From assembly GCA_027596195.1 (NCBI GenBank), contig JADGJG010000105.1, positions 1 to 43,941 on the forward strand: 43,941 bases of DNA. The letters run 5' to 3'. This document shows, one piece after another, positions 24,724-43,941 of the stretch. Below the pieces are notes generated by a model that saw nothing but the letters and a program-made list of their open reading frames with translations, made no database searches and was not told the DNA's origin. Made by a program: the position numbers and the translations under genes. The first letter of the stretch is position 1, and each line of letters begins with the position of its first letter. Origin of the DNA: Podochytrium sp. JEL0797 (taxonomy: Eukaryota; Chytridiomycota; Chytridiomycetes; Chytridiales; Chytriomycetaceae).

Positions 24724-25109
24724 TCCGGTTACGACTAGTAACTGTTGTAGGACGGAAAAATGGTTAGTGCGAGTCGAAAATATTGTGCATTTTATTCGGA
24801 ATCTGATTGGACAGCCATCCTCCTAAATCGTGTCTGAGCCGCACACGAGCCTACTCGAGAATCGAATCAGTGCATTCGCAAGAGGTCTATCGCGAGAGGT
24901 CAGTCACCGAAGGAGGGGTCGTGGGAACGAAAGGGAGAGGTAGGAGAGGGCTGGGAAGGATGTTGTGGGTGGTTCCTCATCATGTCATCAGGTGTTTGAC
25001 GGCCGATATCTGCTGAACTAATAAAGCGAATCATAATCGGATGCCGGGTGTGCCTAGATATATGGTTAGCCAACATGGGAGTCGAAGGACAGGACTGTGC
25101 TGTTAAGGG
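24724..25109 (+). repeat. 5' terminal segment of element A (386 bp)
   Basis: About 92% identical to 37864-38249 and 43556-43941. It starts with a small palindrome (GTTAC, 5-nt spacer, GTAAC) and ends at GTGCTGTTAAGGG, where the three copies stop resembling each other or the window ends. In element A it is followed by 25110-25955. Confidence 0.9.
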
Positions 25110-25955
25110 TGCGACGACGCCAGCCCTCCGGCCGTATTTTGCTCAGTGGCATTCTTTTCAAAATGTTTGACATGCTGTACCGCGGGATCCAAGAGAGAGA
25201 ATCAGAATCGGACAAAAGGAGCATCGAGCTAAAGCATCAGGCATTAGGCAAGCGCGAGGGAAAGTCGGCAATGTCATCAGTGAGACCACACGAGCCTTGC
25301 GGCCGATTTGGGATACAGTGCCACACCCATTTAAATTGGAAACTCGCCAACAGGACCCTCTGTGATGCCCCAGTCGCTCTCCTCCCACATGCCTTAGCCA
25401 TTCGACCTTGCAAGTACGCGCAAGCAAGCCAGCATGCCATGAACCTCCCAGCGATATGACGTCACAGGACCCGAAAATCTCATTCATTCATTCATTCCGA
25501 TTGGCGAAAGGGAACCCACACTGCACATACTCAAGCAACAATCCAGCAAGCCAGTCATGCAACCAAGCTACCCATTTCACGCAAGCAAACCAACATCATG
25601 TGGACGCGAAGAGTGGAAAAGTTGGACCCCCAGAAATTCATTCATCAATCATTCATTGGAAAAAAAGTCGACTCAGTCATCTCTGATCCTGAGAAAGAGA
25701 ACCGCAATCCAAGCACACTGAACCAAGCCAGATTCCGACTGCATGCAAGACACAGCAAGCCGCGATCTTCACAATGAACGCAATAAAATTTCATTAATTC
25801 ATTTAATAATTGCACACGAGAAAGAGAGCCCGGAACCACGAAGCCAGCACGGGAGTCAATCAAAAAAGCAAATCTCCTCCCGAGAAAGGGAATGTGCATC
25901 GCGAATATTGGCGAAATAAAATTGTCAGCCGCTCCACCAAAAAACACAGAAATCA
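25110..25955 (+). other. Leader region of element A before the Rep gene
   Basis: 846 bp with no convincing gene. It contains CATT-rich microsatellite stretches (25486-25500 and 25635-25660) and several AAGCCAG/AAGCAAGCCA-like motifs. It probably includes the promoter and 5' untranslated region of the long gene starting at 25956. An ATG at 25075 opens only about 30 codons. Confidence 0.45.
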
Positions 25956-28900
25956 ATGATCTGGACCGAAGAAGAACTGGCCAGCTGCTGTGAGACGCTT
26001 GATCTCAATCCACAAGGGATCCATCCGAAACTCTTGTCCAATCTCTTTGGCATTTGGGATCCAATGACACTGTCCTACAATCTGCCTGCATGGACTATTG
26101 AGCAACTTGAGTATGTGGAACTCAACTGGATCCACGAATACCGCCTCTTTCACGGCTGTCAAATCATCCATCCGGTTCTGTTGGCCAACTTGTTTGGCAC
26201 ATGGAATTTAAATACACGCAACTTCAATCTACCGGAATGGACAATCGAGCAAATCAATTATCTCGAAGCAAACTGGAGTTATGAATATCGACTCTTTCAC
26301 GGCTCTGAAGCTGATTTGCATGGAAACGAGCCCAGCAAGAGTACCAGGGCTAAACCGAAGGAGAGTGCTGCAATGAGAGCTTATTTGAAGCTGCTGAGAA
26401 AAAACGTCACAAAACACCGCATCAGAGATGGAATCTTCAAAATGCGCGGTGATTGGAAGGCCAGAGTAAATCCACCAACAGATTTAACAGAGGTGGTTTA
26501 TGGGAGAAAGCATCTGCGCCACTTAACAAACAGGGATCTTCGTTACCTGTGTGTGAAAAACAAACTTGAAGAGTTGAATGAGCTTTCACGCCGCGAGAAG
26601 TCTACAATGGTCACCATGCTGGTCACATCCTTTCGCGAGTTTGTAGTGGAGGCATTCTTGCGGAAATTTCAGGAGGAAAACGCGAATGAAAAAATGATGG
26701 AGCTTGCACCTGCTGCATTTACAGAAGTGGAGTCCAATGAAGAAACTGCATGTGAGTGTGTTTTTTTCATTTGGAACGATGGTATTCACTTCGTTTTAGT
26801 AAGGGCTCCATCTGTTTCATCTTTGCCTCCTGACCCAACCACAACAGCAACCTCAGATTTGGATAGGAATGATGCACTTGATTTCGCAGCAAATTCTAGT
26901 TCAGCGAAAATTATGGACAAAAATGAGGAGGCAGTAGAATCAGAGTCTGAATGTGAGTTCATATTCTTGCACTTGCAATGGTCATAATAATTCTTTTATC
27001 CAATCTTTTATTAGCTCCTGGTGTTAAGCCTGCATGTGCAGTTGCAGTTCCATTATCACTAGGGCTCCAGACTGTTAGGAAGTCAGAAAGAGATGCTGAC
27101 TCTGAATGTAAGTAGACTTGATTCCACTCATAATTTGGTTCTTATGTTTTTAGAACAATACAGCATTGCTTCCACCACCTCCACCTGTTGATTTTATGCT
27201 CTCACTTGCCGTTCCACCACCGCTTTTGATCCAAGACTCTGCTGAAATAGAAAACAATGTCAATTCCAAACGTGAGTTGCTATAGCATTCAATCAATTTT
27301 TTTCAATTATTCATTTTTATCGAATGCAATCACACAGAGTTGCTTGTACCACCTACTACTGTCTCACCAATCATGACAGTCTTTGGGCCTCCACCTCCAG
27401 TGCTTGAAGTTTGCATTGAGAAAGAAGAAAATGACCCCACTTCAACTGTATTGAAGGAATTTGATGGTGGAGATGTCTCTCCTGCCATGTCAACAGATGC
27501 CAGTTCGGAATTATCTGAAACTGATTCTTTTCCTGACCTGGTTTCCGACTCTGATTTCGATTCCAATTCCGATTTCGAATCCGAATCAGAAAACTCTAGT
27601 AGAAATCGTGAGCTGCCATTAATTCAAAGTTTCTTAAATAACATTTTTTGGTAGAATGTACTTGTTGTTGGAATGGGAACAACCAGCCAACTTATCCTAT
27701 TGAGCCAAATCAACCTACTGGATCAGATAGAGAATCCGAATTGTCTGATGGAGATATGCCAAACCTCCTGGACGATTCTGATTCAGAGACTGAATATTCT
27801 AGACCACCAATAATCATTCCACCGCAATTTGCCCAGGTAGAAGCAGAATTGTCTGATGGGGATATGCCAGATCTTCTGGAGGATTCCGATTCAGACTCTG
27901 AAAATTCCAGGGCAAAGCACTGCAAACAAACAAATGAGAGGAAGTCAGTCAAATCAGAATTGCCAGACTTGGATATACCAATGCTGATATCTTCAGACAC
28001 AGATTCCGATAATGTATATTTCGAAACATTTGGTCAGGATATATTCTTCTTTATTCTTCAACCTACAATATTGATCTGATTTTTATTAGGTCATGAATGG
28101 ATGGGAGCACAGCATGGTATTCTAAGTGGTGGGCCTCCAATTCTGTCAGAAGAAGAAGCATTGGCAGCAGAGTCTCTCTTTGTGGATTCTGCTTCGGAAC
28201 TTTCCCCAGAGTTGGTTTTGAATTCAAAATTGGTAACTGAAAATGCTGCAGTACTATTGTCCACTGAACCTGATACAAATGGTGACTATTCTGATTCTTT
28301 TGTCTTCCTGGCAACTTAATATATTGATATATATTATGCAGATCATTTGGGAGCTCATGATAGTATTCTTGGTGGTGGACGTCGAGCTCATACACATGAA
28401 GAAAAGCTGGCAAACAAAGCCAAGAGAGCTGAGCAGCGTCGCGCCCAAAATGCTGAACACCCTGAAGTAGAACGCGAAAAAAGGAGGAAAACATACGATA
28501 GTCGATCAAAGGAAGAGCAGGAAAATGCGAAATTAAAGCAAAAAGAAAGGAGGGATGGTCAAATGGATGAACAGAGGTCAAACAACAATGCTAAGCAGAA
28601 AGAAAAGCGGGATAATCAATCAGAGGAACACCAGGCCGAGGAAAACTTAAAACGAAAAGAGAGACGTGATAGCCGAACAAAGGAGCAGCAAGACGCAGAA
28701 GCTTTGAAGCGAAAAGAAAAACAACAACTTATGTATGCTAGCCGCATGGAAGATGAGGTGGAGAGGGATCAATTGGACAAGAACCAACGGTACAACTTAC
28801 GGACCCCTACTGCACGAGCTGCACAAGAAATTAATCGGAAAGCGGCCCGCCGTCGTCATGCTGCAGTGTTACAGGATTTGCTGGTGGAAACCAAGGAGGC

Positions 28901-31900
28901 TCTTGCTAAAATGGACGCAGATTTGGATTTGAAAGCCGTGACTGCAGAAACTCTGGATGACATTGAGAAACGACTGCGGCTATTATATGTGCCAGATAAT
29001 TTTGAATTGGTTGCATGTGCATGCTGTGATGCGCTAAAATTCAAGGCCAATGATTTTGTTCCTGATATCAACATTGCCGAAATTCCAGACAAGCTGCTTC
29101 AGGTGAGTGCGGTTTTGAGTTTAAAAACTAATTCTCTTACTCAGGCAATGAAAGCCAAATTGAATATGAGCAATGAAGCTGGAGTGACTGCAAATATGCG
29201 GGTGTTTCCATTACCTCTCAGAGAGTATTACTCCCCTGCCATCTTGCAAACAAAATTGAAAGACACTTGGATGTCGCCAAATGGATGCTATGAGGCTGTG
29301 AATTCACCTGAAGCCAATGATTCTGCTGCTTCTTCCACATCCAATGATGCACTGGAAAATCCAACACCATCAAATGAGACCACAGCCACTTACATTCGTT
29401 TGTGCACTGAATGTTCCGAACAACTTGAGAATGACAAAAAACCGAAAAAAGCCATTGCCAATGGGCTGCAAATTGGGCGTCTCCCTTTACATCTCCGACT
29501 GATTACTGGCATTGAAGCTGCTACTGTGGCAATGTATCAAGTGTCATGCTCTCTCATATCCATTGCAGGTGGAGCAGGCCGAAAACTGACTGGTCATGTG
29601 TATGTGTTCACAGCAATGGGTGAACCACCGATTGTCCACTTTCCCAGGGATGTCGCGGGAGATATCCGCATCTTAATTACTGGAAAATTGACAGATGCTC
29701 AACGTGCGAAAATCCACAAGTTTTTTGCTTACAATATCGACAATGCGCGCCAATTCTTTGACTTCCTCAAGGAGAATCACATTGATTATCGAATGTGCGA
29801 CTTTGATGTGTCAAAAGCGAATCCAAATGTCATATTTGCTGATGCTCCTGGAGAAGAGGCACACACAGAAGCGGAAAAACTACACGAATCACTGCCCAAC
29901 CATAGTAATTCCAATGACAGCACTTCAGAAGAAAGTTCCGAATTTGATCTCCGCATTTCAGCAGCTATTGACAATGGTCCAAAGTTGACACAAAAAGTGG
30001 AAGAGCACCAGTATATTGTTGAACGTGCCAATGTTGTCTGCAAAGAATTATGGGAAAAAATGCCGGCCACTTTTCCAGAGCTTTTTCCGTTTGGAAGAGG
30101 AGGTTTGCAAGATGAAAGGGAAACAGCAATTGGCCAGGAGGAATATGTTTTGTGAGTCCATTTTCTTCCTTCTCTGCATTTGCAGACAATAACTGATACA
30201 ATTGAAATCTTGCAGGCATTTGCTCAGCTTGAGTTCACGAGCATTTGCTCAACATGCCACATTCACAGCCTTAGCCTTTGACGCAATTGCCAAAAAACGT
30301 GCTGCTGATACTGCATTCTTCAAAGTCAAATATGATGCAGTCAACATGAATCGAATTACGCGAGACGATATCGAGGCCTATTGGAAATACGTGGACGCAT
30401 ATAACAAAAGTACACGGACTGGTCAGCCACACCCAGCCCGACCAAATCTGGCAGGAAACGGGGCCATTATCCGCGGTGTCGAGCTCGGAGCAGGTGCTCA
30501 TTGGGGAAGTAATGAAGAGAGACGCCAAGGACGTCTCATTGTGGATGCGATGCTTGAAAAATATGGAATGCCCCATGCTTTCCTCACAGCAACTCCAGAT
30601 CCAAAGGATATTTTGACAATCTTCTTTATGATGGGGGATAAGGAAGTCTTCACCCAGAGGCCAACAGCAGATGAACGCAAGCAGATGATTGGAGCAGATC
30701 CCTTTACAACAACACGGTATTACAAAAAGGTAACTCTTCCATCACAGAGACTTTCTCATTCAAATCTTTCTAACCAATGAATCAAATAGGTCATGGATAT
30801 ATTTTTCAGCAATGTTCTGCGATTTGATTTAAAAACGGGGCGATCTATGGATGGTGGTGGGGCATACGGATGGATTAGGGCTGCAGCAAATGCGACAGAA
30901 TCTCAACTCAATGGGACAAATCATATGCACTGGATGCTTTGGATTCATGGAATGCCCACCACCACACGAGCCACTCGCGAAGCACTCAACATATTTGACA
31001 CTGCCGCTTCCGACCCTTATCAACCTAAACCAAATCCATTGCAATTTGAGCAAATACCAGTGGCAGCGGGATCGTTTGGGGAAAAACTAGTGAATTACAC
31101 AGACAGTGTCGTTACTGCGAGCCATCCTTTCTTGGAAGCTGGAGTGTGCCCAGATTGCAATGCTGCGCTTGAGAAATTGCCGATTCCTCTCGCGGCCTAC
31201 AAGAAGGGGAAACCCAGTGACAAGCCCTGCGGAGTTACAAAATGTACTGGGTGTTTTGTGGTGTACGGATCCGACCAGCTGCTGTGTCTGTGGGTCACCA
31301 AAAAAACGGAGGAATTGAAACTTTCACATCCAGAAGACTATGCTATGCTCACCGAACAAGAGGAAAACGTGTTACTCGGAGTAGCTCCTATCCCGCGAGA
31401 ATTTCGCAGCGGTGCTTCTGGTGACACTGATATTCCTGTACCTCCAGAAGTGAGTGCCATCTGGCTAGCCAAGCGACTCCTCAAAAAGCAGTTTCATCAC
31501 TGCAACCATTTCGGCAGTTGCTTCAAAGTGACCAAACGTACCCCGCATGCCGAAATTTGTCGCTTCTTTATCCCACAAGAAGCAAACATACAAATTTCTG
31601 CATTCTGCACTGACGGAAAATATCACGGCCATCGCCCAATGGGCGCTGAATATTTGAATGGATACAATGAATTGACCATGATCCTTGCCCAGGTAATTCA
31701 ATGCAAACCAACTAGAAGGGTGAAATAATTAAATATCTCGATTATTTTAGCTCAACATGGACTTTAAAATCTGTGTTTCCGGCGAAGGCCCGGATTTGGC
31801 ATTCTACTTTACGAAATACACCTTCAAAGATCAACAAGCCATTCTCAACAAAATCCAGTTCCTCATGGCTGCTTATGATCGTTTCGAATCTCGCAACAAA

Positions 31901-34900
31901 GAAAACCCGCATTATCAATACAAAACCGAGAGATCCAAAGCAGCCAGCCTTGCGCTTTCCATGCTGAATGCACGCACCGGATTTCAAGAGACTTGCTCCC
32001 AATTGATGTGTTATTTCCTGCTTGGAGTTCGAGACCCGTCTCAATATGGCCCATTTGTCTTCTCACATCCGTACCTCCTTTTGAATATTTCCAAGGGTTT
32101 ATCAGCATGTGGCTTGCCAACTTATTTCTCTCGATCGCCAAAATCCACTGAATCACCCATTGACGAAGAAAACGACTTGCCCGAAGAAGAGGAAGAACAG
32201 GAAACACAAGAGGTGCCGGATAGAAACGAAGAGGAAGAGATTGAGAAAGAGAGAAACGCAAATGACGCCGAAAACGAGGAAGATGGGGATCAAGGACAAT
32301 CCATCAACGTGACGCTGGCCCAGATGCGAAATGAATTCATTAATTCCGAACAAGATGATCTTGCCGCCGACACAAAACAAATCAGTTATTCAGTGTACAC
32401 ATCGCGTCCTGACGGTCCCTTATTTGCGGAAGTTGGTTGGGTTCCATTCTATGAAGCGTGGCATTTAACGAAATTGCCAAAAAAGAAAGTGAACGCGGAC
32501 CTGGAAGAAATTGAACCCAATCTCGAAGGAAAACATTTACTTCAACCGCTTCATCGGCTTTCCAAAACATTCCATGTTATCCTCAACAAGATTGACACTA
32601 CTGTTGTCAAAATCGGGCCGCGCTTACCAAAACTTGATTGGCGCGACAATTTGCAACCACAGACTCCAACAACTGAATTCTATGCAAACATGATCCTCAT
32701 CATGTTCAAACCACACCAAACTGTAGAGGATCTCAAAGGGGGCCAACCCACTTTCTGGCGGGCATTCATTGCTTGGGACAAATCGACGGCAGCTATTCAA
32801 TATATGGATCATTCAGCTGATTACCACTACTCAAGAGAATTAATGGCAACCAACCAAGGCGCAGAATATGAGAAAGCATTCGCTGATGCGCTCAACGCGG
32901 ACCCCGACTTTCCACGTGCCACAAATGCCGATGCTGCCCCTCCAATACCAGATGAAGACGATTCCAATAATTACGAGGAAGTTCCGTATGATATCGATGC
33001 CAATGTGAATATTGAGGTGAACGACTTTTACGAAAAGCAACTGTTGGATATTCCCGGCATCACAGATACCCTTGCTGCGTTGACCAGCCACCCCGAAGCC
33101 ACGTCAATTGATTGCGCGGAATTTACAATTCCAATAGAGCAGATTAATACGCGACTTAAACGTCAAGCAGAGATCAACCGCCCAACTCCACTGCCACCAA
33201 CTACAGACCCAGCCGAAGGTGCCTCTCCTAGACATAGCATTTACACAGCCTATCCACTTTTCGCTGGGCGTGTCACGTTATACGAGGAAGCGCAGAAACG
33301 AGTTCCATATGACGCCGCTGCCGTTGCAGAAACACGAATATTAAAAACTCCAATTCCACCTCCCACCGAAATGCCTTTCCTGTCAGCCGAAAAAATATCT
33401 CGAATGCACACACTCAACTCAAAACAACACCATATTTTCATGGAATACGCGACTGTGTTGATTTCAGCATTTCGCGATGACGACACGGAAAATCGTTCCG
33501 CGAACCAACCGGATGCGCCAGATATTGCGTCAAAACTGAATCCAAATCTGTTTCAAAAAGCAACTCAACTTCTCAAGAAACTGTATGGTGAAGGTGGAAC
33601 TGGGAAATCGCAAGTCATCAAATCACTTCAATATTTGGCTTGCAATTGGCTCCGACCCGAAACTGTCATCACAGTCGCGTTCACAAACGCAGCTGCAGCT
33701 CAATGCAATGGTCTCACATTGCATGATGCTGCTGGGTTAGCGGGAATCTCCTTAAAATACAAAGACCTGGCCAAGAATCCTTTCGTTGAACTTCGTATCA
33801 AATGTGCCAAACTCATTATTATTGATGAACTGAGTATGATTCCGCAAGCTTTGTTTGGTGTCTTTCATTCTCGATTTCAATCACTAAGCTCTGATGGGAA
33901 TCACCGCTATGTATTTGGAGGAAAACATGTCTTGCTCTGTGGCGACTGGCTACAAATTCCTCCTGGTATGATTCATTCTACTACCCGCTCCCATTTTACT
34001 TACTAATTTTTATCCACAGTGAAAAGCCTTTCTTTGTTTCGCGACCCAAAAGATTTGACAGATGACAAGGCCATCCTAGGTTACCAAGTATACCATTTAT
34101 TTGGCTTGGGTGCCATCTTGGACGAAAATATGCGCGCCATGAACGATCCAGACTTTGCCCGATTCTTGGTCAAACTCCGAGAGGGAGACTATGACCCCGA
34201 GATGCTTGCATACTTCAACTCGCGCGTCATTTCTCGCAAAAATAAGCAAAAATTCTTGGACTCTACAGCTCCATTCAAGCTAAGCATTACTGGCCTCAAT
34301 GTAGACCGTGTTGCCATCAATTGGAAAGCCACGCAGCTGGCCGCACAAGCAGGAAAACAGGAATTGATTCAATTTGATGCACAACCTATTGGAAACCCAG
34401 ATGCTCTTGAAGGCTTCATGCATTTATCGGAAGCAGCGACATCAAATATATGCCTTCGAATGCAGATTGCCAAGAACACCCAAATTGTATTCTCGCGTTC
34501 CGAAATTACTCAAAAGGCACATGGAATTTCCAAAGAAACTGTTGGTCACGTAGTGGGTTGGCGATTGAAACCAGGAACGAAGTCTGAAATCAGATTTCTT
34601 CCTGGCGGAAATCAGCAGTTCACTCATCTTTTCTCTCCGCCCGACATCATTTACGTCCGAATCCTTGACTCCACCACTGTGTATGACACAGATCTTCCCC
34701 CAGGCATATATCCAGTATTGGCACACGAAATGAAGGACGTCAAAATATTGCGCGGTAAAAGGAAACATAAGACTTCCGAAAAACTTTTCGACCACATCCA
34801 TTCAAGGTCCATTCGAGGTTTCAACTTTCATCCTTGTTACGCAATCACTCCTGAAAAGTCGCAAGGAATGACTCTCCAATTCTTGATTCTTGACAACTTT

Positions 34901-36182
34901 GCTACTCGCAAAAACCCACCCATCAACGGAATGTATGTCGCCACTTCACGAGTCAAGCAACAATCGCAGCTTTGGCTCACCACCGCTCTTACGCAACAAA
35001 CATTCCAACGTCTCTTTGCAATCAACAAAGATGCTTACGCTGAAATGATGCGTGAAGAAGATCCTGAATGGCGCGTACGTACTTATGGGAATGAAACCTC
35101 GAAAGGGAACTCCAAAGGCAAGGGAAAAGGGAATCAAAATCCTCCACCAAATCCAACAGGCCAACCCCCCCAAAGACAACCACAAGATATTGACCCGCTC
35201 CTATTTGGACCTGTACCTGGTAAGTTTCCTTTTTTTTTTTATTTGGCCAATCGAGAATATATGCTTTAAATTTCATTCTTTAGTCATGGCAGGCCCATCT
35301 CATCGCAACAACACCTGTTATCTTACATCTCTGACTGTGGCCCTCTCTGCAGTAGCGGCTGCAGCCCCAACTCATCTACAACTCCCATCTGTTCTAACAC
35401 CTGCACATTCCGAAATGCTGATAGTTCAAATGCTACAACACTTCATCCAATTGAGCAACTCACCCCCCACTGAGCGACCACAGTTGGTTTCTACTTTTGC
35501 AACCACATTTTCCACCTGGGTCACGGAAACTATACAGAAATACGAATTTAATGCTTATGGGAATCCATTCGAAGTCCTATTCGAACTGCTGAAACTCGAA
35601 TGCTGTCCAGTCACTCTTAGAGATGCTTTCACGTTTGAACAGACCTCGTATTATTCTTGCCAGAATTGCGAATCAAACCTTCGCACTGCCGTCACTCCAC
35701 GCGAATTACCAGGCTTCCCTATTGCAAACCAACACATTGTTGGAGCAGGTTCTTATAATGCAGAATCAATTCTGACTGCTTTGCACAACACGCTCCAGTG
35801 TGCAAGCAACCAGATGTGCGCGAATTGCAATTCTACTTTAACACACTCTATCCATGTATCCACCATCCCCAAAATCTTATGCTTCCAATCTCCTACAAAT
35901 GCGGCCCAGCATCTTACCGACACTCCCATTATATATCCTCCAGAAATCCAAATTGAAACGCGAAAATGGGAACGAGTATCCGTCATTTATGCAACACATC
36001 CGAGTGGGATGCACTTTTACACCCATTTCGAAAGGAATGGGCAACCCTATATCTACAATGATTTAAAGCAAAGTGGGCTTTACTCAAAAGCGACATCCCC
36101 TCTTCCTGACAGAAATGGGCTGCAAATGTTAAATTTTTATGTCGAAATAGTCAATGCACTGGATGAGGGAGAAGATTTATAA
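25956..36182 (+). CDS. Helitron Rep-helicase fused to a ubiquitin-protease-like domain
   Basis: Predicted exons: 25956-26751, 26800-26952, 27015-27107, 27164-27271, 27338-27607, 27655-28032, 28090-28281, 28342-29102, 29145-30151, 30216-30729, 30790-31692, 31751-33965, 34020-35219 and 35284-36182. Phases agree throughout and give 3,162 residues; the donor at 28033 (GTCAGG) is weak. Order of parts: W-T-x-E repeats and a SAP-like stretch (1-265), acidic short exons, 19-residue basic repeats, a DUF6570-like region (about 890-1200), HUH nuclease with H-M-H (about 1469-1471) and catalytic tyrosines Y-F-T-K-Y (1744, 1748), Pif1 helicase with GEGGTGKS (about 2338), IIIDELSM, GDWLQIPPV and VATSRV, then a USP-like domain with Cys box NNTCYL (C2875), two CxxC pairs and His box GMHFYTHF (about H3107). 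Rep nicks and joins DNA during rolling-circle transposition; the protease role is unknown. Confidence 0.85.
28542..28712 (+). repeat. Three 57-bp coding repeats (basic 19-residue units)
   Basis: Units 28542-28598, 28599-28655 and 28656-28712 encode KE(R/K)RD...(K/E)EQ...K(Q/R), for example KERRDSRTKEQQDAEALKR. Degenerate copies flank them. Similar Arg/Lys-rich tandem repeats ahead of the nuclease region are common in such elements and may bind nucleic acid. Confidence 0.8.
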
Positions 36183-36400
36183 TTTTTTGGTTTCTACATA
36201 AATCAATTCGCTTTTCTCCATGACTAAACCATTCATCCTTCCAAAGGGTTCATTTATTCTAAAAAAAAAAGATTGAATTCTTCCGCTTTACATAATAGTT
36301 TGAATTCCAATTTCCAAAATACGAAAAATTCGCCATTCATTGAAGGTGAAATCATTTCCATTTGTTCTATTTGATACATCATTCATTAGCAAGGCAACAA

Positions 36401-36409
36401 TATAAATAT
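36401..36409 (+). promoter_or_regulatory. TATA-box candidate of the second Helitron gene
   Basis: TATAAATAT, 46 bp upstream of ATG 36455, within a 272-bp A/T-rich gap after the stop of the long gene. The identical sequence occurs at 42093-42101 in element B. It suggests that the second gene has its own promoter. Confidence 0.5.
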
Positions 36410-36454
36410 CCGTTCGAAAATCCACAATCCAAAAATCAATTCACCCCCCCCACA

Positions 36455-37674
36455 ATGTCGTTTCTCCACCACACCAACAAAAAGCCAAACACCAACACCA
36501 CCACCCCTCCTCCATCATCGCCAACAGATCCAGCTTCGAATGCTTCCTTGCCCACTCCCGCTCCTCCACCACGTGCTACTACTACCAACTCCAAAACTCC
36601 AGTTCATGGACGCCGTGCTGCTGCCACAACTCCAGCTCCAGCTCCAACAGGTTCTGCTACCACCTCCTCCACTACCACCCCAACACGCGCCGCTAATGCC
36701 ACCACTACAACCACTCCCTCATCTTCCACGACTACACCTCCCACCCAACCTGCAACTGTTCAAACTGTCAGAATCACCCCAGTGAGACGCAACCCCAACT
36801 TTACAACGGTCCTGAACAACTCTACACAGCCTGTGGCCATCCCACTACCTCCCACCCTTCCTCGTGACCCCAACTACTCAAGCTTCAACACCAAAAACAG
36901 CCGTCTCCCAACCTCCCTGAAAACCATCTCCCTCAGCAACCTTGCCGGAGATGGAGTGAAGGAATTGATCACTGCCCGTATGGCTCCAGCCACACTTTCC
37001 TCAGGCCTGCTTCCCACACGCGTAAATGACCCAGGCCGCAATAAAATCAGCTACCACCTCAATAATGGAGAGTACACTCTTCACCTCAACTCAAATGGCT
37101 CCATCACTCAAATCACTTTCCGTATGTTGGCCCTTGTTGCTGGCCTTGGTTTCAACAAAGACACAGGCATGTTGATTCCAATTGGTTTCTCTCACAACCT
37201 CCATACTCACACACTCCCTTTTCATCAGTCGAAATATCTACCAATCGTTCACTCATAGTGCATCCAATCGTTGCTGATGATGGCCACGACCTCCAGAAAT
37301 GGGGCCACACGGTCATGGCTCCCCTTGGCCCCACCTCCCTCTTCCCAGGTACAACAAAAAACGGGACGGAACTCAGATTCAACCATTCAGGAAGGGTTCC
37401 CCTCTACTTTGACATGTTCTCTCATGCATTCGGAAAACACACCTATGACCAGGCCCACACCATCAAAATGAATCGCGAACCTGTTCAAAATGACCTTGTC
37501 GAAATTTTCTTCACAGTCGGCCGTTACCCAAATGGCTCGTATTTCAATGGTGCTTTCAACTTGGTCAATATTGTTTTATTGGCCATTCAAGGGGAAGATC
37601 TGGCAGATGGTCCTTTCGACAATGAGGCTCCAACAAACACTGACATGGCAGAGGATGTTGGCGAAGACCTTTGA
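36455..37674 (+). CDS. Helitron second protein: P/T/S-rich with acidic tail
   Basis: Two exons. Exon 2 is 37259-37674. Exon 1 ends either at 37184 (74-nt intron, GTTTCT donor, 381 residues, preferred because the sequence up to GFNKDTGMLIPI looks coding) or at 37121 (137-nt intron, GTATGT donor, 360 residues); both keep the frame. The first ~105 residues are low-complexity P, T, S and A. The rest is a folded-looking domain rich in beta-type segments (KISYHLNNGEYTLHLNSNG, LVEIFFTVGRYPNGSYF, FNLVNIVLLAI). It ends in an acidic tail (DMAEDVGEDL). No family is recognised. An OB-fold-like core plus acidic C-terminus is typical of single-strand DNA-binding proteins, which some Helitron groups encode, so that role is a guess. 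Confidence 0.6.
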
Positions 37675-37828
37675 CCATTTAATTTACAATGTATAATTTT
37701 GTTTTTTAATTCAAAGTAAAAAAATAAAAAATTTCTGTGCAATGACCACTCACTCCAAATCTGTTGTTCCGGTAAGGACAGTCACCCAACTTGGAGAATT
37801 CATTCATGCAGAGGCGGAACCGCTCCCC

Positions 37829-37847
37829 GCTCGTGGTACCCACGAGC
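37829..37847 (+). other. 3' terminal hairpin of element A
   Basis: Perfect stem GCTCGTGG / CCACGAGC with loop TAC, 16 nt upstream of the 3' boundary at 37863. A short hairpin at this distance is the standard Helitron 3' termination signal. The identical hairpin is at 43521-43539 in element B. Confidence 0.85.
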
Positions 37848-37863
37848 CAGAATTTGAAATCTG

Positions 37864-38249
37864 TCCGGTTACGACTAGTAACTGTTGTAGGACGGAAAAA
37901 TGTCGGGTGCGAGTCGAAAATATTGTGCATTTTATTCGGAATCTGATTGGACTGCCATCCTCCAAAATCGTGTCCGCGCCACACACAAGCCTGCTTGAGA
38001 ATCGCATCAGTGCATCCGCAAGAGGTTCATCGCGAAAGGTCAGTCACCGAAGGAGGGGTCGTGGGAACGAAAGGGAGAGGTAGGAGAGGCCAGGGAAGGA
38101 TGTTGTGGGTGATTCCTCATCATGTCATCAGGTGTTTGATGGCCGATATCTGCTGAACAAATAAAGCGAATCATAATCGGATGCGGGGTGTGCTTGGATA
38201 GATGGTTGGCCAACATGTGTGTCAAAGGACAGGACTGTGCTGTTAAGGG
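37864..38249 (+). repeat. 5' terminal segment of element B (386 bp)
   Basis: Identical by eye to 43556-43941 and about 92% identical to 24724-25109. In B it is followed directly by helicase coding sequence. It contains an ATG (38215) in frame with that coding sequence. Confidence 0.9.
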
Positions 38250-41200
38250 AAAATTCCATGTTATCCTCAACAAGAAAGACACAACTGTTGTCAAAATCGG
38301 ACCACGCTTGCCAAAACTTGATTGGCGTGATGATTTGCAACCAGAGACTTCAACAACCGAATTCTATGCAAGCATGATTCTCATCATGTTCAAACCTCAC
38401 CGAACTGTGGACCATCTCAAAGATGGACAGCTGACATTTTGGCGCGCTCTTGTTGCTTGGGACAAATCTCCTTCGGCCATTCAATATATGGATCATTCTG
38501 CTGATTACCACTACTCACGAGAGCTTATGGCAACCAACCAAGGCGCCGAATATGAAAAAGCTTTTACTGACGCGCACAACGCGGATCCTGACTTCCCACG
38601 TGCCACCAACGCTGATCCAAAACCACCAACACCAGATGATGACGATCCCAACGATTATGAAGTTCTTCCGTATAATCTCGGCGGCGAAGAGAGCATTGAA
38701 ATCAACAACTTTTACGAATCTCAACTGCTGAACATCCCTGGTATTGCAGATACTCTTGCTGCCTTGACCAGCCACCCAGAAGCCACGCCAATTGATTGCT
38801 CGAAATTTACAATTCCAATGGAGCAACTTACGACGCGACTTAAAAATCAAGCAGAGATCAATCACCCCACTCCCTTGCCTCCGACTGCAGACCCCCCCGC
38901 CAATGCCGCTAAAAAACACGACATTTATACTGCCTATCCGGCTGTTGGCGTGCGTGTCACTCTATACAAGGATGCACAGGAAAGACTTCCTTATGATGCT
39001 GCTGCCGTTGCGGCAGAACGAATATTAAAAACTCCAATCCCGAACCCCACCGAAACTCCATTCATGACGGCCGAACGAATCTCTCGAATGCACACACTCA
39101 ACTTGAAGCAGCACCTTATTTTTATGGAATACGCGCTTGCATTGATCTCCGCGTTTCGCGATGATGACACGGAAATTCCTAAAATGAACCAACCAAATGC
39201 CCCCGACATTCAATCAGAATTGAACCCGAATCTTTTTCAGAAAGCAAACCAACTGCTCCAAAAACTCTATGGTGAAGGTGGAACTGGAAAATCCCGAGTC
39301 ATCAAATCACTTCAATACCTTGCTGCCAACTGGCTTCGACCTGAAACTATTATAACAGTTGCATTCACAAACGCAGCTGCAATTCAATGTGACGGCCTCA
39401 CATTTCATGATGCTGCTGGATTGGCTGGAATCTCCCTTGCCTACAAAGATTTGGCCACGAATCCATTCATCCATACCCGAATCAACTGTGCCAAGTTAAT
39501 AATTATCGATGAATTGAGCATGATTCCGCAAGGTTTATTTGGCATTTTCCACTCCCGATTTCAATCCGTTTGCTCCACTGGGAATGACCGCTATGTATTT
39601 GGAGGAAGACATGTTCTTTTATGCGGCGACTGGCTACAAATTCCTCCTGGTACGATTCATTCAATATATGTTTCCCCTTCCTAAATAATTGGGTTTTCAA
39701 TTTAAAAACAGTGAGAAGCCCTTCCTTGTATCGCGACCCAGGCAACTCAAAAGATGACAAGGCCAGTTTGGGTTACCAAGTCTACAGATTATTTGGCTTG
39801 GGTCAAATCTTGGATGAAAACATGCGCGCCATGAACGACCCAGAGTTTGCTAAATTCCTTGTCAGACTCCGTTTGGGACAATATGATGTTGAAATGCTCA
39901 ATTACTTCAATGAGAGAGTTATTACTCTGGAAAATAAGCAACAATTCCTCAACTCTACAGCTCCATTTAAACTCACCATAACTGGCCTCAATAAGGATCG
40001 TGTTTCCATGAACTGGCGAGCCACTCAACTGGCCGCGCAAGCTGGCAACCAGGAATTGATTCAATTTGATGCCCAACCTCTCGGAAGACCAGATGCACTT
40101 GACGGATTCATGCATCTATCCGAAGCAGCGACTTCAAATATATGTCTCCGGATGCAGATTGCCAAGTACACCCAAATTGTCTTCTCCCGCTCCGAAATCA
40201 CCCAAAAGAAGCATGGAATTTCCAAAGAAACGATCGGACATGTGGTGGGTTGGCGATTGAAACCAGGAACAACATGGGAGACCAAATTCCTTCCAGACCA
40301 AGTGCAACAAGTCACCTGCCTTCATACTCAGCCTGATATCATTTACGTCCGAATCCTTGGCTCCACAACCGTTTATGACCCAGAACTCCCACCTGGTGTT
40401 TATCCAGTCATGGCTCACGAAATTACGAGCCTCAAGTTAACACGCGGTCAAAAGAGACACAAAACATCCAAGATGCTTATCGACCAAATTCATTCAAGGT
40501 CCATTCGTGGGTTCAACTTTCATCCTTGTTACGCCATTACTCCCGAAAAGTCGCAGGGGATGACGCTCGAATTCCTGATTCTCGACGACTTTGCCACACG
40601 CAAAACCCCTCCAACGAATGGAATGTATGTAGCCACTTCAAGAGTCAAGCAACAATCGCAGCTTTGGCTCACCACCGCTCTTACGCAACAAACATTCCAA
40701 CGTCTCTTTGCAATCAACAAAGATGCTTACGCTGAAATGATGCGTGAAGAAGATCCTGAATGGCGCGTACGTACTTATGGGAATGAAACCTCGAAAGGGA
40801 ACTCCAAAGGCAAGGGAAAAGGGAATCAAAATCCTCCACCAAATCCAACAGGCCAACCCCCCCAAAGACAACCACAAGATATTGACCCGCTCCTATTTGG
40901 ACCTGTACCTGGTAAGTTTCCTTTTTTTTTTTATTTGGCCAATCGAGAATATATGCTTTAAATTTCATTCTTTAGTCATGGCAGGCCCATCTCATCGCAA
41001 CAACACCTGTTATCTTACATCTCTGACTGTGGCCCTCTCTGCAGTAGCGGCTGCAGCCCCAACTCATCTACAACTCCCATCTGTTCTAACACCTGCACAT
41101 TCCGAAATGCTGATAGTTCAAATGCTACAACACTTCATCCAATTGAGCAACTCACCCCCCACTGAGCGACCACAGTTGGTTTCTACTTTTGCAACCACAT

Positions 41201-41874
41201 TTTCCACCTGGGTCACGGAAACTATACAGAAATACGAATTTAATGCGTATGGGAATCCATTTGAAGTCCTATTCGAACTGCTGAAACTCGAATGCTGTCC
41301 AGTCACTCTTAGAGATGCTTTCACGTTTGAACAGACCTCGTATTATTCTTGCCAGAATTGCGAATCAAACCTTCGCACTGCCGTCACTCCACGCGAATTA
41401 CCAGGCTTCCCTATTGCAAACCAACACATTGTTGGAGCAGGTTCTTATAATGCAGAATCAATTCTGACTGCTTTGCAGAACACGCTCCAGTGTGCAAGCA
41501 ACCAGATGTGCGCGAATTGCAATTCAACTTTAACACACTCTATCCATGTATCCACCATCCCCAAAATCTTATGCTTCCAATCTCCTACCAATGCAGCCCA
41601 GCATCTTACCGACACTCCCATTATATATCCTCCAGAAATCCAAATTGAAACGCGAAAATGGGAACGAGTATCCGTCATTTATGCAACCCATCCGAGTGGG
41701 ATGCACTTTTACACCCATTTCGAAAGGAACGGGCAACCCTATATCTACAATGATTTAAAGCAAAGTGGGCTTTACTCAAAAACGACCTCCCCTATTCCTG
41801 ACAGAAATGGGCTGCAAATGTTGAATTTTTATGTCGAAATAGTCAATGCACTGGATGAGGGAGAAGATTTGTAA
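38215..41874 (+). CDS. Truncated helicase-USP-like protein of element B
   Basis: Exons 38215-39649, 39712-40911 and 40976-41874, phases intact, 1,177 residues from an ATG inside the 5' terminal segment (MCVKGQDCAVKGK, then helicase sequence FHVILNKKD). The upstream frame is open further, to about 38188. Pif1 motifs are complete: GEGGTGKS (39271-39294), IIIDELSM, GDWLQIPPV, SQGMTLEFLILD and VATSRV. The C-terminal protease-like domain keeps NNTCYL, both CxxC pairs and GMHFYTHF. No HUH nuclease part is present. The first ~800 residues are clearly diverged from element A, while the rest is nearly identical. The absence of stops in the diverged part suggests selection on the helicase before or after the deletion. 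Confidence 0.75.
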
Positions 41875-42146
41875 TTTTTTGGTTTCTACATAAATCAATT
41901 CGCTTTTCTCCATGACAAAACCATTCATCCTTCCAAAGGGTTCATTTATTCTAAAAAAAAAAGATTGAATTCTTCCGCTTTACATAATAGTTTGAATTCC
42001 AATTTCCAAAATACGAAAAATTCGCCATTCATTGAAGGTGAAATCATTTCCATTTGTTCTATTTGATACATCATTCATTAGCAAGGCAACAATATAAATA
42101 TCCGTTCGAAAATCCACAATCCAAAAATCAATTCACCCCCCCCACA

Positions 42147-43366
42147 ATGTCGTTTCTCCACCACACCAACAAAAAGCCAAACACCAACACCACCACCCCT
42201 CCTCCATCATCGCCAACAGATCCAGCTTCGAATGCTTCCTTGCCCACTCCCGCTCCTCCACCACGTGCTACTACTACCAACTCCAAAACTCCAGTTCATG
42301 GACGCCGTGCTGCTGCCACAACTCCAGCTCCAGCTCCAACAGGTTCTGCTACCACCTCCTCCACTACCACCCCAACACGCGCCGCTAATGCCACCACTAC
42401 AACCACTCCCTCATCTTCCACGACTACACCTCCCACCCAACCTGCAACTGTTCAAACTGTCAGAATCACCCCAGTGAGACGCAACCCCAACTTTACAACG
42501 GTCCTGAACAACTCTACACAGCCTGTGGCCATCCCACTACCTCCCACCCTTCCTCGTGACCCCAACTACTCAAGCTTCAACACCAAAAACAGCCGTCTCC
42601 CAACCTCCCTGAAAACCATCTCCCTCAGCAACCTTGCCGGAGATGGAGTGAAGGAATTGATCACTGCCCGTATGGCTCCAGCCACACTTTCCTCAGGCCT
42701 GCTTCCCACACGCGTAAATGACCCAGGCCGCAATAAAATCAGCTACCACCTCAATAATGGAGAGTACACTCTTCACCTCAACTCAAATGGCTCCATCACT
42801 CAAATCACTTTCCGTATGTTGGCCCTTGTTGCTGGCCTTGGTTTCAACAAAGACACAGGCATGTTGATTCCAATTGGTTTCTCTCACAACCTCCATACTC
42901 ACACACTCCCTTTTCATCAGTCGAAATATCTACCAATCGTTCACTCATAGTGCATCCAATCGTTGCTGATGATGGCCACGACCTCCAGAAATGGGGCCAC
43001 ACGGTCATGGCTCCCCTTGGCCCCACCTCCCTCTTCCCAGGTACAACAAAAAACGGGACGGAACTCAGATTCAACCATTCAGGAAGGGTTCCCCTCTACT
43101 TTGACATGTTCTCTCATGCATTCGGAAAACACACCTATGACCAGGCCCACACCATCAAAATGAATCGCGAACCTGTTCAAAATGACCTTGTCGAAATTTT
43201 CTTCACAGTCGGCCGTTACCCAAATGGCTCGTATTTCAATGGTGCTTTCAACTTGGTCAATATTGTTTTATTGGCCATTCAAGGGGAAGATCTGGCAGAT
43301 GGTCCTTTCGACAATGAGGCTCCAACAAACACTGACATGGCAGAGGATGTTGGCGAAGACCTTTGA
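42147..43366 (+). CDS. Second protein of element B, P/T/S-rich with acidic tail
   Basis: Copy of 36455-37674 shifted by 5,692 bp, with the same two-exon structure (42147-42876 or 42147-42813, and 42951-43366). No difference in the coding sequence was noticed, so both copies would make the same protein. The P/T/S-rich start, beta-rich core (VEIFFTVGRYPNGSYFNG) and acidic C-terminus are all kept. Its upstream TATAAATAT lies at 42093-42101. Retention of this gene in a nuclease-less element suggests that it is either useful in cis or merely part of the recently copied 3' block. Confidence 0.6.
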
Positions 43367-43520
43367 CCATTTAATTTACAATGTATAATTTTGTTTTTTA
43401 ATTCAAAGTAAAAAAATAAAAAATTTCTGTGCAATGACCACTCACTCCAAATCTGTTGTTCCGGTAAGGACAGTCACCCAACTTGGAGAATTCATTCATG
43501 CAGAGGCGGAACCGCTCCCC

Positions 43521-43539
43521 GCTCGTGGTACCCACGAGC
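43521..43539 (+). other. 3' terminal hairpin of element B
   Basis: Stem GCTCGTGG / CCACGAGC, loop TAC, identical to 37829-37847 and again 16 nt before the element boundary. Confidence 0.85.
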
Positions 43540-43555
43540 CAGAATTTGAAATCTG

Positions 43556-43941
43556 TCCGGTTACGACTAGTAACTGTTGTAGGACGGAAAAATGTCGGGT
43601 GCGAGTCGAAAATATTGTGCATTTTATTCGGAATCTGATTGGACTGCCATCCTCCAAAATCGTGTCCGCGCCACACACAAGCCTGCTTGAGAATCGCATC
43701 AGTGCATCCGCAAGAGGTTCATCGCGAAAGGTCAGTCACCGAAGGAGGGGTCGTGGGAACGAAAGGGAGAGGTAGGAGAGGCCAGGGAAGGATGTTGTGG
43801 GTGATTCCTCATCATGTCATCAGGTGTTTGATGGCCGATATCTGCTGAACAAATAAAGCGAATCATAATCGGATGCGGGGTGTGCTTGGATAGATGGTTG
43901 GCCAACATGTGTGTCAAAGGACAGGACTGTGCTGTTAAGGG
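43556..43941 (+). mobile_element. 5' end of a third element (C), cut by the window end
   Basis: The 386-bp 5' terminal segment, identical to 37864-38249. The window stops at the base where copies A and B diverge (after GTGCTGTTAAGGG), so it is not known whether C is a full or an internally deleted element. Confidence 0.8.

Follow-up and report, generated by a model that had tools for sequence, protein, structure and literature searches.

A USP-like domain at the end of a Helitron Rep-helicase gene in the chytrid Podochytrium sp. JEL0797

The Rep-helicase (RepHel) gene of a Helitron in Podochytrium sp. JEL0797 ends in a domain resembling ubiquitin-specific proteases (USPs). On balance, and with moderate confidence, we favour the reading that the exon encoding this domain specifies a USP-class (C19-like) cysteine deubiquitinase forming the C-terminal part of RepHel, which would most likely deubiquitinate RepHel or gathered host proteins and so spare the machinery from degradation. 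The window, that is, the whole stretch of DNA analysed, comprises 43,941 nucleotides (contig JADGJG010000105.1 of assembly GCA_027596195.1, forward strand). The copy in the window is referred to by its contig label, C8, and relatives were compared within this one genome, on the contigs labelled C177, C228, C593 and C657.

The USP-like exon and the element that carries it

The USP-like exon lies at 35284-36182 on the plus strand, and is supported by a Pfam UCH match, by the positions of its motifs and by its register with a host USP. It is preceded by a 64-bp phase-1 intron (35220-35283, plus strand; GTAAGT...TTCTTTAG) and by the C-terminal helicase exon (34020-35219, plus strand), which has a proline-rich linker at its end and is supported by the splice model and by related pieces on C177. 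The predicted splice continues the helicase exon in frame into the USP-like exon (GPVP-VMAGPSHRNNTCYL...), with a stop at 36182. The initial annotation had placed the end of the helicase exon at 35219, with a GTAAGT donor and an in-frame exon after it, and both the sequence and the splice model bear this out.

Numbered from the Met at 35286, the domain contains a Cys box, NNTCYL (residues 8-13; Cys11 codon at 35316), two CxxC pairs, CQNC (Cys125/128, codons 35658/35667) and CANC (Cys178/181, codons 35817/35826), a His box, GMHFY (His243, codon 36012), and YIYNDL (Asp259, codon 36060). All five motifs had been noted initially, and all are present and in order. NNTCYL, which is found on C177 too, fits the USP Cys box, N-T-C-[YF]-[ML]. 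The two CxxC pairs, both of them also on C177, correspond to the USP zinc finger, with two such pairs about 50 residues apart. A His box with a following Asn/Asp, also typical of USPs, is present, the canonical GGHY reading GMHFY here. The USP-like domain is real.

Splice-path computation gave a 14-exon model for the RepHel-USP gene, of 3,102 amino acids (25956-36182, plus strand), much of which is collinear with C177. The product of 3,160 residues proposed earlier is superseded by this figure, which is itself subject to uncertain N-terminal exon choices. Upstream of the USP-like exon, Pfam searches found DUF6570, Helitron_like_N and PIF1. The Rep region and the first part of the helicase (30228-33965, plus strand; PF14214, PF05970) contain NHMHW and YFTKY, and the counterparts on C177 read NHAHW and YFTKY; we take NHMHW/NHAHW to be the Rep HUH motif and YFTKY the two-Tyr motif. 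These features identify a Helitron Rep-helicase gene, in which Rep and Pif1 would be made as a single protein provided that the splice model is correct. Near the predicted RepHel N-terminus, at 26019-26304, there is a tandem repeat of about 46 residues whose DNA copies are 71% identical.

The element that contains this gene (element 1) is 13.1 kb long (24724-37863, plus strand), begins with TCCGG, and is followed directly by the next element. Its 5′ end, TCCGGTTACGACTAG, occurs in four copies, at 24724, 37864 and 43556 and on contig C593, and the two copies that do not lie behind another element are preceded by A. A hairpin, GCTCGTGGTACCCACGAGC, was found near the 3′ end at 37829-37847 (plus strand; fold z -2.5, with 4 of 200 shuffles as good), and a genome search for its pattern gave two sites, one in each window element. 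Canonical Helitron1 elements are described as having a 5′ TC, a 3′ CTRR and a hairpin that lies 10-12 bases before the 3′ end (PMC5148889). The window element has the 5′ TC, its hairpin lies 16 bases from its 3′ end, and its last bases are TCTG, not CTRR. The 5′ end (24724-24763) can also form a small GTTAC/GTAAC hairpin, but its fold does not stand out from chance (z -1.1, matched by 30 of 200 shuffles). The AP endonuclease found C-terminally in Helentrons had no match in the scanned frames, which took in most of the RepHel gene and the second gene and left out the small exons at 27063-28281.

Downstream of the USP-like exon is a second gene (36455-37674, plus strand), with two exons predicted by eye, a low-complexity N-terminus and no Pfam match. 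It adjoins the USP-like domain in the window and has relatives beside that domain on C177 and C657; the relatives on C177 (L018:5820-7119; E=2e-5 and 3e-21 for the two exons) were not listed by an earlier genome search. Element 2 (37864-43555, plus strand) is internally deleted. After its first 386 bp, the sequence jumps at 38249/38250 to the counterpart of position 32566, with the loss of 7.4 kb equivalent to 25110-32565, and its USP-like exon, at 40976-41874, is 99% identical to that of element 1. A third tandem element (43556-43941, plus strand) repeats the 5′ end for its first 386 bp and is cut by the end of the contig.

Fusion to the helicase and comparison of copies

The window alone is ambiguous as to whether the domain is fused to the helicase, because an in-frame ATG lies two bases past the splice acceptor. 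This ATG, at 35286, could open an independent short gene for a separate USP-like protein, with the supposed intron at 35220 as its 5′ leader; a frame read on into the intron is closed by a stop at 35269, shortly ahead of the ATG. The GTAAGT donor, however, has the joint best score among the 13 donors of the gene model, and the relative on C177 argues further against a separate gene. There the order is helicase (54-64% identical), USP-like domain (40-44%) and second gene, and a phase-1 intron lies directly 5′ of the USP-like domain, as in the window. From the C177 helicase donor up to the codon for the catalytic Cys, none of the frames contains an ATG, and the joined exons leave an open frame from the linker through the Cys box. 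A stand-alone C177 product would therefore be without an active site. The C177 domain also has a frameshift further downstream, either a mutation or an assembly error, so that decay might account for the missing ATG. Through gene order, intron phase and the missing ATG, C177 nevertheless appears to settle most of the question, supporting the fusion proposed in the initial annotation better than the window alone does, and we regard a separate USP-like protein as unlikely.

On C177 the intron is preceded by a pair of proline-rich mini-exons, 72 and 69 bases long and both phase 1 (19262-18942, minus strand). These resemble tandem duplications that lengthen the linker between the helicase and the USP-like domain.

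The initial annotation described the domain as retained in two diverged elements. In the 2,384 bases up to 34949, an alignment of the two window copies has 515 differing columns, 48 of which are gaps, or about 22%, but over 34950-38249 it has only 14, all within 35555-36225, and these 14 may partly reflect the assembly of similar repeats. Being nearly identical here, the window copies are not independent witnesses for the USP-like domain, and the evidence for its retention was therefore moved to C177 and C228. For this region the claim does not hold for the window pair; diverged relatives are found instead on C177, at about 40% identity, and on C228, at 61%, the latter for the tail only. The contrast in element 2 between the near-identical last 3.3 kb and the sequence before it suggests either recent homogenisation or an assembly join.

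Thirteen of the 14 differences fall in the domain, and 10 of them are synonymous against 3 nonsynonymous (p=6e-5). This synonymous excess points to purifying selection on the domain. Comparison of C8 with the C228 tail gave a dN/dS of 0.36 over 85 codons (p=0.003), and between the C8 and C177 domains synonymous sites were saturated. The copy on C657, the fourth, has probably decayed: it retains a 32-residue domain tail, and the second gene next to this tail contains stops and has one part in the opposite orientation.

The same comparisons bear on whether the captured domain was kept for cleavage or to bind ubiquitin, say, or a partner. The domain is divergent, and the canonical QQDAxEF box of USPs is absent, its likely equivalent, judged by eye, being GNPFEVLF. 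Insect relatives of the Helitron VTD domains are also reported to be without active-site residues (PMC9741609). The catalytic positions of the present domain, by contrast, are kept: Cys11 in C8 and C177, the two lineages that extend to it, and His243 with the following ND in C8, C177 and C228, the three that extend that far, H243, N258 and D259 being invariant among the copies compared. Retention for binding without cleavage is thus quite unlikely.

Assignment to the USP class

The domain very probably belongs to the USP class. Pfam UCH (PF00443) matched the window copy over residues 7-203 with E=3.1e-4 and 20.9 bits, under the cut-off of 23.9, and on C177 the C-terminal piece of the domain passed the cut-off for UCH_1 (PF13423) with 22.8 against 22.2 bits, the match covering its zinc-finger stretch. 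When the domain was aligned with a host USP, which itself scores 150 bits to UCH, the Cys box, both CxxC pairs and the His box were in register, and YATHPSGMHFY ... YIYNDL aligned with YHRGGRESGHYW ... FKYDE. This cellular USP (L022) of the same genome thus shares the order of these motifs, at 20% identity to the window domain. Among 200,000 shuffles the Cys box arose in 120 and the full ordered motif set, a pattern composed after the domain was seen, in none; a Pfam scan of four shuffles returned no families.

Other comparisons gave less. Neither the N-terminal piece of C177, which bears the Cys box, nor the C228 tail matched any Pfam family, and a profile search of the whole genome with UCH, in which scores were computed for the top candidates, listed 21 matches, with none on C8 or C177 among them. 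Searches of PDB sequences gave no meaningful match, profile-profile comparison was weak (E=0.001 at probability 20 and E=0.008 at probability 5), and with a home-made profile of four USP sequences the window domain ranked 7 of 2,421 entries (E=2.1), under several shuffles. Structure prediction was run twice, from the single sequence (pLDDT 35.8) and from an alignment that added element 2's copy and a pair of IMG/VR USPs (pLDDT 34.2), in which, by eye, the His box was misplaced; both models were unusable, and the USP fold is inferred. An NCBIfam scan gave one weak match, to YccA (E=0.006), which was taken as chance.

The weak profile-profile scores, the failed small-profile test, the unusable fold models and the missing genome-wide UCH matches would all be expected if the domain were cysteine-rich but unrelated in fold, with motifs that had converged by chance. 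Such a domain would not, however, readily account for two diverged members matching UCH and UCH_1, for boxes that register with a host USP, or for an ordered motif set found in none of the shuffles, and we consider it very unlikely. The C19 assignment of the initial annotation accordingly keeps its UCH match and ordered motifs, with a score below the cut-off and several weaker profile tests unsupportive. Its alternative, a C98-type (USPL1) peptidase, was dropped, as Pfam gave no match to Peptidase_C98 at E<=1. OTU and Ulp1 identities were dropped likewise, OTU and Peptidase_C48 giving no match at the same threshold.

Relatives were also sought more widely. In a protein collection, the domain alone gave 1,146 candidates, with none at E<=0.01; a RepHel-USP query of 1,975 residues, for which the final 700 were scored, gave 4,175, with none at E<=0.001; and an alignment with the host USP gave 7,183, with none at E<=0.01. 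Since even the helicase was unmatched, these zeros probably reflect how few eukaryotic proteins the collection holds, and have no bearing on rarity. Viral contigs searched with the domain and with the helicase yielded no relatives, and a host-USP query and a two-USP alignment run against viral sequences yielded none for a deeper alignment. Loci left out comprised one of three (L073), by eye not a USP, and 28 of 30 that had no open frame bearing both USP motifs.

A Helitron_like_N search of the genome gave eight matches on seven contigs. On the five contigs besides C8 and C177, no ORF of at least 60 residues in the fetched stretches matched the domain at E<=1; this absence is informative for C434, C373 and C346, where the helicase and 2 to 7 kb downstream of it are present, and uninformative for C114 and C92, whose fetched stretches stop too soon or show no end of the helicase. 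Of 41 ORFs listed beside other Helitrons eight were scanned with Pfam, and six from C434, C373 and C346 showed no protease family. On C434, F-box/leucine-rich-repeat ORFs (L053/L054) lie just downstream of the helicase of another Helitron.

Proposed function and known systems

Translated as the C-terminal part of the Rep-helicase protein, the domain would act in cis, removing ubiquitin from RepHel or from host proteins co-recruited to the transposition site, and this deubiquitination would keep the transposition machinery from degradation during rolling-circle copying. The element may in this way protect itself or nearby proteins from the disposal system of the cell while it moves. The initial annotation gave SUMO beside ubiquitin as a possible modifier and host repair factors as possible substrates, and these are likewise candidates. 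The domain is compact and testable, and its active-site positions are named above.

The initial annotation also suggested that the protease processes its own long product. USPs act on ubiquitin-type tails. The product is very long and has the domain at its end, as a protease cutting its own polyprotein in viral style might, but the gene model contains 10 GG sites, one of which reads GRGG (in the Rep region) and none LRGG; self-cleavage is therefore unlikely, and we rate it as highly improbable.

Deubiquitinases on rolling-circle elements are a published kind, for both the OTU and the VTD class in Helitrons and Helentrons, so that the enzyme class claimed initially as distinct from OTU and Ulp1 is indeed distinct, but as a further case of something known. 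A USP-type one is new here within the literature searched: no USP-type Helitron or Helentron was found in it, most subscription journals and Repbase lying outside its scope. A study of Mucoromycotina mentions both Helitrons and C19 proteases, each on its own.

Helitrons and Helentrons with VTD domains resemble the window element in having a cysteine deubiquitinase built into the rolling-circle protein, and the activity of VTD domains encoded by zebrafish Helitrons (DrT1, DrT2) on ubiquitin was measured in vitro; the authors suggest that these domains keep proteins on which transposition depends from being degraded by the proteasome (PMC9741609). They differ in that the domain is of the herpesvirus-tegument type, in some cases together with OTU, that an AP endonuclease is C-terminal, and that the hosts are vertebrates, insects, cnidarians and molluscs (PMC9741609), whereas the window element has a USP-like domain and no endonuclease or OTU match. 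The OTU Helentrons likewise carry a cysteine protease of the ubiquitin pathway that is proposed to aid transposition, but it is of the OTU class, is encoded as an additional ORF, and accompanies the Helentron endonuclease (PMC4067079).

Among fungi, Pleurotus and Fusarium Helitrons share with the window element a RepHel with Rep and helicase and hairpins at the ends, and Pleurotus RepHel has introns, as does the window gene; according to the Pleurotus paper, no cysteine protease was found in that RepHel ORF (PMC4289320, PMC5148889). Tandem Helitron copies, as in the window, are described in Metarhizium acridum (PMC5148889). Plant KIU/Ulp1 MULEs are also transposons that took up a ubiquitin-like-protease domain, but the domain is of the Ulp1 class and the elements are MULE DNA transposons (PMC13317346).

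A third unrelated enzyme class joined to a transposase would favour ubiquitin removal as part of the transposition cycle over accidental gene capture. We lean, if only slightly, towards the view that on at least three separate occasions rolling-circle transposons have acquired deubiquitinases, the classes being unrelated (OTU, VTD and USP) and the present domain lying within the Rep-helicase polypeptide, which would make deubiquitination a general need of Helitron transposition.
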